Positions 237 to 4,305 of a stretch of 41,912 nucleotides of DNA are shown here, piece by piece. The stretch's first letter is position 1; each line of letters begins with the position of its first letter. The notes beneath the pieces are model-generated. The model saw nothing but the letters and a program-made list of their open reading frames with translations. It made no database searches and was not told the origin of the DNA. The translations under genes were made by a program, and so were the position numbers. Source of the stretch: Acidobacteriota bacterium (GTDB lineage Bacteria > Aquificota > Aquificia > Aquificales > Aquificaceae); assembly GCA_003696155.1 (NCBI GenBank), contig RFFP01000023.1, positions 1 through 41,912 of the forward strand, read 5' to 3'.

Positions 237-2363
237 TCAGGTAAAGTCGTTTATAGGCAGGAAGGAAGTGTATTTAAGCACATGCTCAAGATTGCCCTTG
301 AGCTTCCTTATGCCCACCCTTGAAGCCTTGTACCATGGTATGGTTGTCTTGGGGTCTGTGTAGTCGGTGGTTAGGTGGTTCAAAGATTCCTTCCAGCGGT
401 ACATAAGCCCGTAAACCGTGCCCGGTGGCGGAGCGTCGTTCACATAAACTACGCAAGCACAGTTGCCCTCAAGGTTAAAAACTTCCACTATGTCTCCGTT
501 CTTGATGCCCAGTCTTTCCGCATCAACAGGGTTCATCTCAATGTAGGGCATGGGTATGGTGAAAACCTTTTCGGGTAGATACCTGTCGTTGTAGCCCGTC
601 TGCCAGAATATCTGGGTTCTTCCGTTGGTAAACCAGAAGGAAAACTTTTTGTCGTTTCCGTCCTTGAAGTACTTGGTTATCTGTGGTGGGTAGAACTTCA
701 TAGGGTCTGGATCCCATGGGTCTGTGCCATACCACTTGAACTTACCATCAGGCGTGCCAAACTTGTAAACATACCTCCTTTTGGTTCCTACAGGCTGTCC
801 TGTCTTGGGGTCTATCCTTACCGGCACTTGAATACCCTTCTGACCCACTTTCCTAAGGTATTCATAGGTGACCCCCTTGTAGCACTCCGCAGGAAGCATT
901 GCCTCATCCGCTTCGGATAGCCTGTTATCAGGAAAATCTTCGCCACCGTCAAGGAAGACCTCCTCCGCACTCTTCCAGTCCATGCCTGCGCAGTACTTTG
1001 CCTCTTGGTGGTTTCCTTCCGCTTCATACAGCTCTTTCATCCTTGTAGCTATCCTTCCCCATATCCACCAGTCGGGCTTGGCATCCCCAGGAGGGTCCAT
1101 AAATTGGTCCGCTATTCTCAAAAGTCTTGAGTTACAGTTTATGTAAGTAGTGGGTGTCTCTCCCCATCCTGCGGCGGGAAGTATTACATGGGCATCCCTT
1201 GCGGTTTCTATTTCATACATGTTTATCACTACAAGGAAAAGACCCTCCGTCTTATCTAGAGCTTCCAGTATCCTCTTTGCTCTTTCTTCAGACCCTGCGG
1301 GTTCTCCTGCGCTCGCCGCATATTCAGAAAGAAACTTAGTGAGCGCAAAAGTCCTTTCGTGAAGCCTCTTTTTATAAGCTTGGGAGTTTGGCGTTGAAAG
1401 ATAAGGGTCTGTGCCGGAAACAAAGTAAACCTTAGCCCTCTGGTCGTTTTTTACATACTCATCTATGTTGGGTGGTGGTCCTCCTGCGTATATGGAACCC
1501 ACAAGCTTAGCTCTTGACTTTCCGTGAGGTCTTACATAGCCTTCTTGGTGTCCTCCCTGTCTTCCACAGCCTGTGCCTGGCTTTCCGTAGTTGCCTGTGA
1601 GCGCCGAAAGCTGGGCTATAGCTGCGATGGTGTCGTAGTTCTTGTAGCCCCATATGACGCCCTTCTCGTATATGGTAAGCGTTCTCCTTCTATGTCCTCC
1701 CGCCTTAGGCTTTGCTATCCACTCCGCCGCCTTTTCTATGTCCTCCCTTGACACACCCGTAAGTTTTTCAACCCTCCTCATGAACTCATCGTAAGGCACA
1801 TCAAGCATAAGGGACTTTTTCTTGTATTCCTCAAAGGTCTTTAAGTCTGTCCTTTTTTCAACAAACTCCTTGTCCCACCAACCCTTTTCCCACACAGCCC
1901 TCGCTATGGCGTTGGCAAGCACATAGTCTGTTCCAAGGTTGGGCCTCAGGTGCAAAACCCTGCTCTTGTCTATGGATTCTGCCACAGTTACGCTCGCGGT
2001 CCTTCTTGGGTCCACAACTATAAGCCTTGCAGGCTCCGCTGGCTCTCCTTTGTGGTATTCTTTCTTCTTCTCTTCAAGGGTTGCACCTTGGAAGTTTTGA
2101 AGCATATGCTCTGTGTAGAAGACAGAAGCGGTTTCAAAGGAGTTTGCACCCCAAAGGACTATGGTGTCCGCAAGCCTTGCATCCTCGTAAGTGTAATTTA
2201 GCTCATGTGTGCCCCTTTCTCTTTGTCCCCAAACTTCTGAATTGTAAGCGGGTCTGTTGTGTATGGAAAGCATCCTTGTGCCCACTGCAATAAAGAAGAA
2301 CTTACCAACAGCCCAGTTGTCCTCAAAACCTGCGCCAGAACCACCATGGTCGTGTACCTTCAT
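237..2363 (-). CDS. aioA: Arsenite oxidase large (molybdopterin) subunit AioA, C-terminal segment of a frameshifted gene
   Basis: This is the main part of the molybdenum bis-MGD subunit that oxidises arsenite to arsenate in the periplasm, feeding electrons through AioB to cytochromes. The segment opens with the AioA-typical KVHDHGGSGAGFEDNW. It continues with WGANSFETA, where AioA has no Cys, Ser or Sec ligand to Mo, then the MGD-binding regions (VVDPRRTASV, GCGRQGGHQEGYVRPHG), and ends with the molydopterin dinucleotide-binding domain (PVDAERLGIKNGD). The reading frame stays open upstream of the ATG at 2363, back to about 2411, and encodes EVVKGVKDKWGPDSIA. This fits directly onto the C-terminus of the upstream fragment, so the two pieces are one gene broken by a 1-nt shift. 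Joined, they give about 870 residues, somewhat longer than the roughly 825 of well-studied AioA proteins. It follows aioB in an operon. If the shift is real, this fragment lacks the Fe-S domain and would not be functional. Confidence 0.93.
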   Translation of the reverse strand: MKVHDHGGSGAGFEDNWAVGKFFFIAVGTRMLSIHNRPAYNSEVWGQRERGTHELNYTYEDARLADTIVLWGANSFETASVFYTEHMLQNFQGATLEEKKKEYHKGEPAEPARLIVVDPRRTASVTVAESIDKSRVLHLRPNLGTDYVLANAIARAVWEKGWWDKEFVEKRTDLKTFEEYKKKSLMLDVPYDEFMRRVEKLTGVSREDIEKAAEWIAKPKAGGHRRRTLTIYEKGVIWGYKNYDTIAAIAQLSALTGNYGKPGTGCGRQGGHQEGYVRPHGKSRAKLVGSIYAGGPPPNIDEYVKNDQRAKVYFVSGTDPYLSTPNSQAYKKRLHERTFALTKFLSEYAASAGEPAGSEERAKRILEALDKTEGLFLVVINMYEIETARDAHVILPAAGWGETPTTYINCNSRLLRIADQFMDPPGDAKPDWWIWGRIATRMKELYEAEGNHQEAKYCAGMDWKSAEEVFLDGGEDFPDNRLSEADEAMLPAECYKGVTYEYLRKVGQKGIQVPVRIDPKTGQPVGTKRRYVYKFGTPDGKFKWYGTDPWDPDPMKFYPPQITKYFKDGNDKKFSFWFTNGRTQIFWQTGYNDRYLPEKVFTIPMPYIEMNPVDAERLGIKNGDIVEVFNLEGNCACVVYVNDAPPPGTVYGLMYRWKESLNHLTTDYTDPKTTIPWYKASRVGIRKLKGNLEHVLKYTSFLPINDFT

Positions 2364-2401
2364 GGCAATAGAATCCGGTCCCCACTTGTCCTTTACACCC
2401 T

Positions 2402-2854
2402 TTACAACCTCGCTATTAGGTCTATTGCCTCATCCCAGCTCACAGGCATAAACTCGTCCCCCACCCTTATCATTGGGTAGTGTAGCCTGTTCCTGGTTGG
2501 TTTGGTGGGTGAGTAGGTTGCCTGAGCGTTTGTGCCTCCCCTTATAGAGTAGTTGCCCCTGTTTATGGGAGAGTCCTTGGCAGGCACTATGATCACATTG
2601 TACTGTCTTCCATCCTTTTTTGTTATTACCGAGTGCATATTTTCCACATACGCCTGCCCTTCAAGAGCTCGCTCCTGTTTGGTGAAGTCAACGCCAAGAG
2701 CGTTTTCATTGGGCTTTAGACCGCCGTCTTGACCTACAGGCCATACATGAACATTGTAGCCACAGCCCACATTACAGTATTGGCAAACTGTGGTGTATTT
2801 TTCTGCGTTTTTGGGTGGTATAGGTAATTTATCCTTTCTTGCAAACATAGCCAT
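2402..2854 (-). CDS. aioA: Arsenite oxidase large subunit AioA, N-terminal [3Fe-4S] segment of a frameshifted gene
   Basis: This is the N-terminal 150 residues of AioA. The Cys pattern CQYCNVGC (C24, C27, C31) plus Ser103 in NYSIRGGTNAQ matches the three-Cys-plus-Ser arrangement that gives arsenite oxidase its [3Fe-4S] cluster instead of the [4Fe-4S] of related enzymes. The piece ends with PVSWDEAIDLIARL and a TAA stop. The expected continuation (VVKGVKDKWG) is in another frame and is restored by adding one G to the GG at 2409-2408 (minus strand). A good Shine-Dalgarno (GGAGGTG) precedes the ATG, which is 15 bp after the aioB stop. There is no signal peptide, as is normal for AioA, which is exported by piggyback on the Tat-targeted AioB. 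Confidence 0.92.
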   Translation of the reverse strand: MAMFARKDKLPIPPKNAEKYTTVCQYCNVGCGYNVHVWPVGQDGGLKPNENALGVDFTKQERALEGQAYVENMHSVITKKDGRQYNVIIVPAKDSPINRGNYSIRGGTNAQATYSPTKPTRNRLHYPMIRVGDEFMPVSWDEAIDLIARL

Positions 2855-2869
2855 GACCTTACACCTCCT

Positions 2870-3361
2870 TTATTTTTTTGCAATAAGGTTTGATGCCCTT
2901 CCCCATATAAGACCTTCTACACCTTCAGCGTATATATCACCAGTTCTTGGCTCGTATCTGAGTATTATCTGGGGTAGCCACTCAGAAGCATGCCCCTGGT
3001 AGGTCTGTCCGTTTTTGGCTGGATCAAACATAGAGTAGTGGCATTTACATATAAACCTCTTCTTCTCGTAGCTCACAGGACAGCCCTGGTGAGTGCAAAG
3101 GGAAGAGAAGGCAACTATGTCCCTTTGAGGTCCTATGCCACCAAAGGCTTCCCTGCCCAGTTTGACAAGAATAGCGGGAGAGGCATCGTCAGGATAACTG
3201 AAAAGGATTGGTTGGTCCTCCTTTAGGTCTCTGATGTTGGCTACACGCTTTCGTGGATAAGGCAGTGAAGGTGCCACCAAAGCGTGAGCGCCTCCCGTTG
3301 ACGCTAAAAGGGCTGTTGTTGCGGAGGCTTGCAAGAACCTCCTCCTTGACATCTTCATCAT
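2870..3361 (-). CDS. aioB: Arsenite oxidase small (Rieske) subunit AioB
   Basis: This is the Rieske [2Fe-2S] subunit of periplasmic arsenite oxidase. The N-terminus has a twin-arginine signal, SRRRFLQASATTALLAST, followed by an Ala-rich hydrophobic stretch, so the AioAB complex would be exported folded by Tat. The Rieske ligands are visible in two boxes: CTHQGC (Cys and His, about residues 88-93) and CKCHYS (Cys and His, about 107-112). The two outer cysteines could form the usual stabilising disulfide. At 163 residues it is near the normal size. It is first in the aioBA operon. GGAGG lies 9 nt upstream of the first of three ATG codons (ATG ATG AAG ATG), and a sigma-54 type promoter ends about 40 bp upstream. 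The subunit is intact, unlike aioA. Confidence 0.95.
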   Translation of the reverse strand: MMKMSRRRFLQASATTALLASTGGAHALVAPSLPYPRKRVANIRDLKEDQPILFSYPDDASPAILVKLGREAFGGIGPQRDIVAFSSLCTHQGCPVSYEKKRFICKCHYSMFDPAKNGQTYQGHASEWLPQIILRYEPRTGDIYAEGVEGLIWGRASNLIAKK

Positions 3362-3401
3362 GGTAACGCACCTCCTTTAATTGCTTCTAAACCCTTTTAT
3401 A

Positions 3402-3417
3402 TGCAAAAATAATGCCA
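3402..3417 (-). promoter_or_regulatory. Sigma-54 (-24/-12) promoter for aioBA
   Basis: The minus strand reads TGGCATTATTTTTGCA, matching the sigma-54 consensus TGGCAC-N5-TTGCW with the invariant GG (3416-3415) and GC (3404-3403) exactly 12 bp apart. The predicted transcription start is near 3391, about 30 nt before the aioB ATG. arsenite oxidase operons of several Proteobacteria are known to be sigma-54 dependent, and Aquifex encodes sigma-54 and NtrC-type activators. Use of this site here is inferred. Confidence 0.8.
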
Positions 3418-3479
3418 CCTTGACACCGTCATTAAAGAAAAGCTCTTGTAAGACTTTTTTAGATGGTTTGTTTTATCTG

Positions 3480-3518
3480 TTGCTCACTTTTTTATCAACA
3501 TGCACAAAAATTGAGCAA
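3480..3518. promoter_or_regulatory. Inverted repeat midway between two sigma-54 promoters, probable activator (enhancer) site
   Basis: The arms TTGCTCACTTTTT (3480-3492) and AAAAATTGAGCAA (3506-3518) pair over 12 of 13 positions around a 13-nt centre. The centre at about 3499 is about 108 bp from the predicted aioBA start (3391) and about 111 bp from the predicted start of the divergent gene (3610). These are typical distances for a bacterial enhancer-binding protein that serves both promoters. Confidence 0.6.
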
Positions 3519-3583
3519 GAGAACACCTTGATGAAAAGCCAGAAAGCCTTTAAGGTGGAGCAATAGGATAATTTCTTAACTTG

Positions 3584-3599
3584 TGGCATCAATTTTGCA
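3584..3599 (+). promoter_or_regulatory. Sigma-54 (-24/-12) promoter for the V4R/SAVED-like gene
   Basis: The plus strand reads TGGCATCAATTTTGCA, with GG (3585-3586) and GC (3597-3598) 12 bp apart, a full match to the sigma-54 core. The predicted start near 3610 leaves about 18 nt of leader, including AGGAGGG, before the ATG at 3628. It is the mirror partner of the aioBA promoter. Confidence 0.78.
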
Positions 3600-3627
3600 T
3601 AATAAAAGCACATAGGAGGGTGTGCAG

Positions 3628-4011
3628 ATGAAGGATCAAGAAGTTCTCTCTAAGGTGCGCATATTCTTAAGGGAAGAGGGTGTTATAGTGCCAAAGGGTC
3701 ATATAAAGGAGTTTTATTCCCAGCTTATGAAGCTCTCAGGGTTTGGTATAGGCGGGCTGTTGGTTTTCTCAGGTAAAAAGGCGGGTAAAATGACTGGCAC
3801 ATATATAAAGAATATGTTGGGTGAAAAAGAACCAATAGAGAAGGTTGCAGGTTATGTAGGAGCCTTTCTTGAAGAGAGTGGCATATGTAAAGTTGAAAGT
3901 TACCAACTGTCTGACACTCAGATAACCTTTATAGTGAGAGACTCCAGGTATAGAAAAACGTGGCCTCCTGCTTCAAACCTATTCAAACAACCACATTTTT
4001 ATATACCTTGA
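3628..4011 (+). CDS. V4R-like domain protein, first part of a frameshifted gene
   Basis: ATG at 3628 is chosen because AGGAGGG lies 7 nt upstream; the in-frame GTG at 3622 has no suitable spacing. Residues 1 to about 104 resemble a V4R (vinyl-4-reductase) small-molecule or metal-binding domain: a FSGKKAGKMTGTYI helix, a segment like EKVAGYVGAFLEESGICKVE, and the closing strand QITFIVRDS. V4R domains often sense ligands in sigma-54 activators and related regulators. The last 23 or so residues before the stop at 4009-4011 look like out-of-frame sequence. The natural continuation lies in the +1 frame (see the next entry). The gene is divergent from aioBA and shares its probable enhancer site, so a link to arsenic is plausible but inferred. 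The domain call rests on pattern only. Confidence 0.6.
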   Translation: MKDQEVLSKVRIFLREEGVIVPKGHIKEFYSQLMKLSGFGIGGLLVFSGKKAGKMTGTYIKNMLGEKEPIEKVAGYVGAFLEESGICKVESYQLSDTQITFIVRDSRYRKTWPPASNLFKQPHFYIP

Positions 4012-4264
4012 GAGTGCTGGAAACCTACCACCTGAAAAATTTGCCTCCTTCGCCAAGGAGGCTGTAAGTGCACTGCAGGAGATAAAAGGCAAAAGGTACT
4101 ACGAGCGTATGCACTTTTCCCTCTCGTGTCCTGTTGCGGTGGCTTTCTGCTTTGGTGTGGCCTATGGACATTATGATAGGGGCCATATATACAATTACAC
4201 AAAGGGCTACCAGAGGGTGCTTTCCTTGGAGTTTCTAAGGGAGGTCATAGAAGGTAAAGCTTAG
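3938..4264 (+). pseudogene. SAVED-like C-terminal part of the V4R gene, out of frame
   Basis: This frame is open from the TGA at 3935-3937 to the TAG at 4262-4264 and has no start codon before a Met deep inside the domain near 4111. It is therefore the detached second half of the upstream gene, reached by skipping one base between about 3938 and 3975. The peptide has a beta strand and helix (NNHIFIYLESAG, then PPEKFASFAKEAVSALQEI). It continues with HFSLSCPVAVAFCFGVAYGH and a final YNYTKGYQRVLSLE. This order (strand with small residues, P-x-A/V-x-A...G, then a tyrosine-containing strand) resembles the SAVED domain, known from CBASS and type III CRISPR effectors as a cyclic-nucleotide sensor. 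No nucleotidyltransferase or CRISPR genes are nearby. The call is tentative. Confidence 0.45.
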
Positions 4265-4305
4265 GCCTTTTAACGGTGAAATAAGGGCATTATATTTATG
4301 TAGCG

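Follow-up and report, generated by a model that had tools for sequence, protein, structure and literature searches.

How the arsenite oxidase genes aioBA are switched on in a member of the Aquificaceae, and whether the same switch also serves the gene that diverges from them, is the question raised by the DNA upstream of aioB. The window, meaning the whole stretch of DNA analyzed (41,912 nt), is an entire contig and ends about 240 bp beyond aioA (Table 1). A sequence-only reading had proposed that two sigma-54 promoters face outward from the aioBA intergenic region, that an inverted repeat between them is a shared central dyad, and that one enhancer-binding protein drives both aioBA and a divergent V4R/SAVED-like gene. 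We put a probability of roughly 0.78 on the reading that this is a sigma-54 control region acting in both directions through one AioR-type enhancer, as predicted from sequence. The predicted AioR-type sigma-54 control of aioBA is well supported, and firing in both directions is plausible.

Table 1. Positions of features at the aioBA locus, numbered from the first letter of the window
Feature	Sequence	Position	Strand	Remarks
sigma-54 -24/-12 element of aioBA	TGGCATTATTTTTGCA	3417..3402	minus	TGGCAT-N5-TTGCA type; starts 57 nt ahead of aioB start
sigma-54 -24/-12 element toward truncated V4R ORF	TGGCATCAATTTTGCA	3584..3599	plus	TGGCAT-N5-TTGCA type
Inverted repeat with 13-bp arms		3480..3519 (arms 3480-3492 / 3507-3519)		half of operator B plus half of operator A
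Operator A, AioR-type upstream activating site (predicted)	TGCACAAAAATTGAGCA / TGCTCAATTTTTGTGCA	3501..3517		11/12 consensus bases; matrix rank 1
Operator B (predicted)	TGCTCACTTTTTTATCA / TGATAAAAAAGTGAGCA	3481..3497		10/12 consensus bases; matrix rank 2; centre 20 bp from operator A
aioB, Rieske small subunit of arsenite oxidase		2870..3361	minus	163 aa, intact; 64-76% identity to Aquificota AioB
aioA, arsenite oxidase large subunit		237..2854	minus	one-base frameshift; TIGR02693 E=6.4e-251 on larger piece
V4R-family N-terminal remnant		3628..3945	plus	nearly no V4R domain; to residue 108 (counted from GTG 3622); ATG 3628 after AGGAGG 3614-3619
Junction piece between V4R and SAVED remnants		3944..4000		57 bp; 93% identity to a stretch of contig C26
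SAVED-domain gene, C-terminal remnant		4001..4265	plus	PF18145 E=1.5e-8, profile positions 120-189 of 190; frame differs from V4R remnant

The two outward-pointing -24/-12 elements are present where the sequence-only reading had placed them. No other position in the 41.9-kb window comes within one mismatch of TGGCAC-N5-TTGCW. Judged by pattern count alone, two matches are not significant (chance mean, 1.24), and conservation and matrices trained on relatives were therefore used instead. A sigma-54 matrix trained on 16 promoters from relatives, with the window left out, ranked the plus-strand element first in the window (18.3) and the aioBA element second (16.4), ahead of the next site at 13.3. 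The training promoters had themselves been selected for having the motif, and thus the ranking indicates likeness to that set, not function. The 1.47-Mb genome contains 10 matches to TGGCAY-N5-TTGCW, and a backward control gave 4. Other sigma-54 sites of the genome were considered as operator-bearing promoters and rejected: several lie inside ORFs, and none of those inspected has a TGCTCA palindrome. The evidence for both -24/-12 elements is their shared intergenic region, their outward orientation, and their conservation.

The inverted repeat is also real, as are its coordinates and its position midway between the promoters, but it is not one site. The repeat extends to 17 bp at 88%, and its centre (3499.5) lies about 108 and 111 bp from transcription starts set 12 to 14 nt after each -12 element. 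Alignment of relatives ruled out the single dyad as one binding site, and the arms are instead the outer half-sites of two 17-bp operators in a layout common to those relatives. The operator consensus is TGCTCA-N5-TGAGCA, a 17-bp palindrome. When a matrix built from 13 sites of relatives, again without the window and from promoters picked because they carry the motif, was run on the window, operator A scored highest (22.5) and operator B second (15.4), and the next site, at 9.4, fell outside the region. The operators start 157 and 137 nt upstream of aioB, 20 bp apart, and this layout is conserved among relatives. The centre of the pair, near 3499, is still midway between both promoters. No match to GTT-N10-AAC, the experimentally supported proteobacterial AioR site, was found in the intergenic region (3362-3627).

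The sequence-only reading had proposed aligning related aioBA loci, and in that alignment both the -24/-12 element and the paired palindromes recur. Clear AioB homologues (64 to 76% identity) occur in 12 other Aquificota genomes, and the upstream region is present in 11; genome G048 was left out of the upstream comparison because its contig ends inside aioB. The relatives include Sulfurihydrogenibium yellowstonense SS-5, one Thermocrinis MAG, and several Aquificaceae MAGs, and those with the layout come from two families of the order, with S. yellowstonense SS-5 in one of them. A -24/-12-like element precedes aioB in all 11 genomes, weakly so in G063 (CGGCAC-N5-CTGCA), and by a strict count nine of the 11 have palindromes that keep at least 10 of the 12 consensus bases. 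The best operator site is centred 75 to 107 bp upstream of the -24 element, with a second, weaker site 20 to 22 bp off. G011 and G016 have TGGTCA-like half-sites and lower operator scores (shuffle P = 0.04 and P = 0.05); the weak shuffle scores in some relatives arise partly because the g3 genus uses TGGTCA half-sites. The DNA elements, and their conservation in position and sequence, are directly established. Moreover, a diverged AioBA-like pair in G048 (L062 6086-8934), whose large subunit falls below the TIGR02693 cut-off, has the same operator and -24/-12 layout. In control regions upstream of aioB from two Thermaceae and two Acetobacteraceae contigs, one of them only 96 bp long, neither element was found at the thresholds used. 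A search of 64 genomes of the family for TTGAGCA followed by a sigma-54 element after 50 to 80 nt matched only aioB loci, the window, and one site in G044, the exact half-site being too strict for defining a regulon.

Most relatives with the aioB layout carry genes for AioX, AioS, and AioR, and the AioR-like activator is encoded either beside aioBA or elsewhere in the genome. It consists of a receiver, a sigma-54 activation domain, and a Fis-type helix-turn-helix and is of the NtrC type. The AioR proteins form one supported clade (97/87; tree of 12 rows with the long-branched G068 left out) to which the recognition helix SRNTL is common. The linkage of AioXSR in relatives is itself a direct observation. 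An AioR-like gene lies directly upstream of aioB in G052, G054, G030, G101, and G103. It stands alone there in G030, G101, and G103, aioX, aioS, and aioR are in a row directly upstream of aioBA in G052, and G054 is alike with X and S interrupted. An X-S-R cluster is close to aioBA in G063, in G068, and in the g3 genus (G012, G009, and G016); the contig at the G011 locus shows X and S and then ends. In the window's own genus, G037 has X-S-R away from aioBA, next to a porin-like gene that is itself preceded by operators and a -24/-12 element; a porin-like gene of this type follows aioA in other genomes. G036 has X-S-R and no clear AioB, and in G048 the neighbour of X-S-R is a gene for an iron-sulfur subunit, which has an operator and a -24/-12 element of its own.

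The regulators of the window's own genome are a different matter. A genome search found rpoN (DNA-binding domain PF04552, E = 8.8e-38), and its presence is established. The search for an NtrC-type activator, which the sequence-only reading had expected to drive the locus, came back empty near aioBA, and no AioR was found elsewhere in the assembly. Searches for AioX, AioS, and AioR found none of them in an assembly estimated to be 99.99% complete: the best AioX match had E = 6.4e-4 at 27% identity, and the best AioS matches were partial at 24 to 31%. The genome does encode four NtrC-type activators, namely, a GAF/NifA-type, a PAS-type, an NtrC1-type, and a broken NtrC1 paralogue. Each was considered as AioR, and none falls in the AioR clade by tree and recognition helix, the broken paralogue having been judged by BLAST and its tail and the others by tree. 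We note that the broken gene (L067 7151-8494, G000:C25) contains several frameshifts. Because the contig ends about 240 bp after aioA and X-S-R is contiguous in relatives, one gap could hide aioXSR.

The genes on either side are in uneven condition. The aioA frameshift lies near 2400 (region 2331-2460, minus strand), where GCGAGGTTG here corresponds to GCAAGGGTTG in G048, GG versus GGG in a short G run. The missing base may reflect real decay or a sequencing error. After the frameshift, the rest of aioA has 708 open codons. The divergent gene had been offered as a V4R-like co-regulated partner or sensor, an idea that is not supported, as the gene is truncated and leads into a SAVED remnant that is in a different frame. 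In some homologues a stop codon sits immediately ahead of the ATG that corresponds to 3628, and this ATG rather than GTG 3622 is therefore taken as the start of the gene. The closest homologues are about 161 to 173 aa long and 71 to 81% identical over 108 residues. In a full-length homologue the V4R domain PF02830 comprises residues 103 to 161, and the window ORF departs from the homologues after residue 108 into the SAVED remnant in another frame; it is therefore a stub without the V4R domain, and a Pfam search of it gave no hit. Neither is there a complete SAVED domain (PF18145) in an open gene, as only the C-terminal third is present. The 57-bp junction piece was considered as a dispersed repeat and rejected, as only two copies occur in the genome, which proves no mobile element. 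The C26 copy (L200, G000:C26:18541-18597) contains a short inverted repeat, AAAATGTGG...CCACATTTT.

The V4R domain (PF02830) includes the input domain of DmpR/XylR/MobR-type activators. A divergent V4R gene with a -24/-12 element of its own was seen at no other aioBA locus. Where the surroundings of the closest V4R homologues were mapped, the gene belongs to an operon that has a separate -24/-12 element and includes a pyridine-nucleotide oxidoreductase gene upstream of V4R; no operator was found directly upstream of V4R. Four genomes (L140 6024, L148 4470, L151 11689, and L159 6726) have a strong element, TGGCAC-N5-TTGC, divergent from an NtrC-type activator, and the operon behind it contains a large reductase-like gene, SUMT-like genes, the pyridine-nucleotide oxidoreductase, and V4R. 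The leader AGGAGG-TGTGCAG-ATG is conserved, which suggests that the V4R gene moved beside aioBA and came under operators that were already there. In G052 (L100 1451-1590), a fragment of the same V4R gene (residues 1 to 47) lies just downstream of aioA, and a pyridine-nucleotide oxidoreductase gene comes next.

G029, a member of another genus, has a V4R paralogue whose operator and -24/-12 element are laid out in the same way, and V4R genes adjoin aioXSR in two genomes of the window's genus, G037 and, as a fragment only, G036. Thus, a link between V4R and an AioR-type regulon is possible. That the small V4R proteins form a lineage-specific arm of the Aquificaceae AioR-type regulon, perhaps as separate accessory sensors for activators without a V4R input domain, seems unlikely to us. 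In G029 (L142 5323-5429 and 7332-7432), the V4R paralogue and a porin-like gene are convergent, and both have TGCTCA-N5-TGAGCA-like operators and -24/-12 elements. In G037 (L134 3-3122), a 1,040-aa molybdopterin oxidoreductase, whose best NCBIfam match (TtrA) is far below the cut-off, is followed by a V4R gene with the AioXSR-like cluster adjacent.

How the region might work can be sketched from these parts. An NtrC-family activator would be phosphorylated through the arsenite sensor pair AioX-AioS, would bind the two tandem 17-bp palindromes (3481-3517), and would assemble an AAA+ hexamer. The activator would then loop to sigma-54 RNA polymerase at either -24/-12 element, 72 to 95 bp off, and promoter melting would lead to synthesis of AioBA when arsenite is present. 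The same bound activator could open the opposite promoter too, because the operators are palindromic and midway. We infer operator binding, the arsenite response, and two-way firing. Of the proposal that one activator serves both aioBA and the divergent gene, sigma-54/NtrC-type control of aioBA in the Aquificaceae is supported, by conserved elements, AioR-like genes, and rpoN, and bidirectionality is supported as a sequence-level prediction.

The switch may no longer be connected to anything. If AioXSR was lost in the lineage, the region would be a fossil of regulatory DNA in which neither promoter fires under arsenite control, a possibility that we take seriously while leaning against it. Such a relic would account for the missing AioX, AioS, and AioR, for the frameshift in aioA, and for the V4R ORF cut at residue 108. 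But aioB is intact, aioA is open over its other 708 codons, which keep their TIGR02693 match, and the frameshift is a single base in a short G run that could be a sequencing error. Moreover, operators at 11/12 and 10/12 and two intact -24/-12 elements would be unlikely in a long-dead switch, and a contiguous gap past the contig end could conceal aioXSR. Alternatively, another activator of the genome, most likely the PAS-type protein on contig C34, may have taken over the operators and tied them to a different signal. Distantly located regulators have been proposed for aioBA operons that lack aioXSR (Li et al. 2013, PMC3834237), and in G029 the porin and V4R promoters carry the same operators, with no AioR-clade member among the activators retrieved. 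The C34 activator, however, has the recognition helix MHRTTLWRKL rather than ISRNTLxxxL, its group also occurs in genomes that have AioR, and TGCTCA operators are absent from the other sigma-54 sites inspected in this genome. We consider such rewiring improbable.

The remaining doubts concern the second promoter and the repeat itself. The plus-strand element could be a chance match, leaving the aioB promoter as the only real one, given that the gene it faces is truncated and that the aioB operators of the other relatives examined have no divergent -24/-12 element. Chance is nevertheless a doubtful explanation, as the element is the best sigma-54 matrix match in 41.9 kb, and a second, divergent match within about 200 bp has a chance of about 1e-3 (a rough estimate from about 10 matches in 1.47 Mb). 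It ends 14 nt ahead of the AGGAGG of the ORF start, the 75 bp that separate it from the centre of operator A are normal spacing, and the G029 V4R paralogue repeats the arrangement. We consider it very improbable that the inverted repeat marks one repressor site or a terminator with no relation to sigma-54. Long inverted repeats between divergent genes often are repressor sites, but here the inner half-sites and their spacing are common to relatives with different surrounding sequence, and the sites lie upstream of the -24 element, the place for an enhancer and not for a blocking repressor. Given the unsuccessful search for AioXSR, the frameshift in aioA, and the truncated divergent gene, either a regulator absent from the assembly works the switch, or the switch is a relic that was orphaned recently. 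Most likely, the region is an AioR-type bidirectional enhancer with its DNA intact, possibly orphaned in this genome.

Sigma-54/AioR control of arsenite oxidase is indicated beyond the Proteobacteria, with a tandem-palindrome enhancer and AioXSR in the Aquificaceae and in a second Aquificota family. According to a 2013 survey, aioXSR is confined to Proteobacteria (PMC3834237), and we found no paper in the open-access literature that describes the sigma-54/AioR layout of aioBA in Aquificota. The relatives offer a ready test set for AioR-DNA recognition, with TGCTCA versus TGGTCA half-sites, and a candidate regulon of aioBA, porin, and V4R genes for hot-spring bacteria exposed to geothermal arsenic. 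The window is the odd case, an intact DNA switch whose activator was not found in the assembly.

The layout itself was already known from proteobacterial aioBA, and the window is therefore an extension to the Aquificota with another operator sequence. An earlier description of 12 aioBA operons that come with aioXSR reports a -24/-12 element and tandem palindromes 100 to 200 nt upstream of aioB (PMC3834237), and in Proteobacteria RpoN dependence and a footprinted AioR site, GTT-N10-AAC, are known (PMC7533571, PMC5335332). The window resembles the systems of Agrobacterium, Rhizobium NT-26, and Herminiimonas (PMC3834237, PMC7533571, PMC5335332) in its -24/-12 element and its two tandem palindromes at that distance; among its Aquificota relatives an NtrC-type AioR recurs, and many of them share the AioX-S-R gene order. 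It differs in that the hosts are Aquificota, the operator is TGCTCA-N5-TGAGCA (TGGTCA type in g3) instead of GTT-N10-AAC, the enhancer has a second promoter on its other side, and searches of the window's assembly gave no AioXSR. Compared with V4R proteins (PF02830), the N-terminal 108 residues of the window ORF are 81% identical to the full-length G029 protein, whereas the V4R domain is all but missing; the homologues are small, stand-alone proteins with no AAA+ fusion. Finally, Agrobacterium tumefaciens GW4 has an AioR-controlled mcp (PMC5335332). Although mcp encodes an intact arsenite chemoreceptor with a footprinted site and the window has a truncated V4R ORF, mcp is likewise a second gene near an aio cluster with an AioR site and thus a precedent for co-regulated neighbours.
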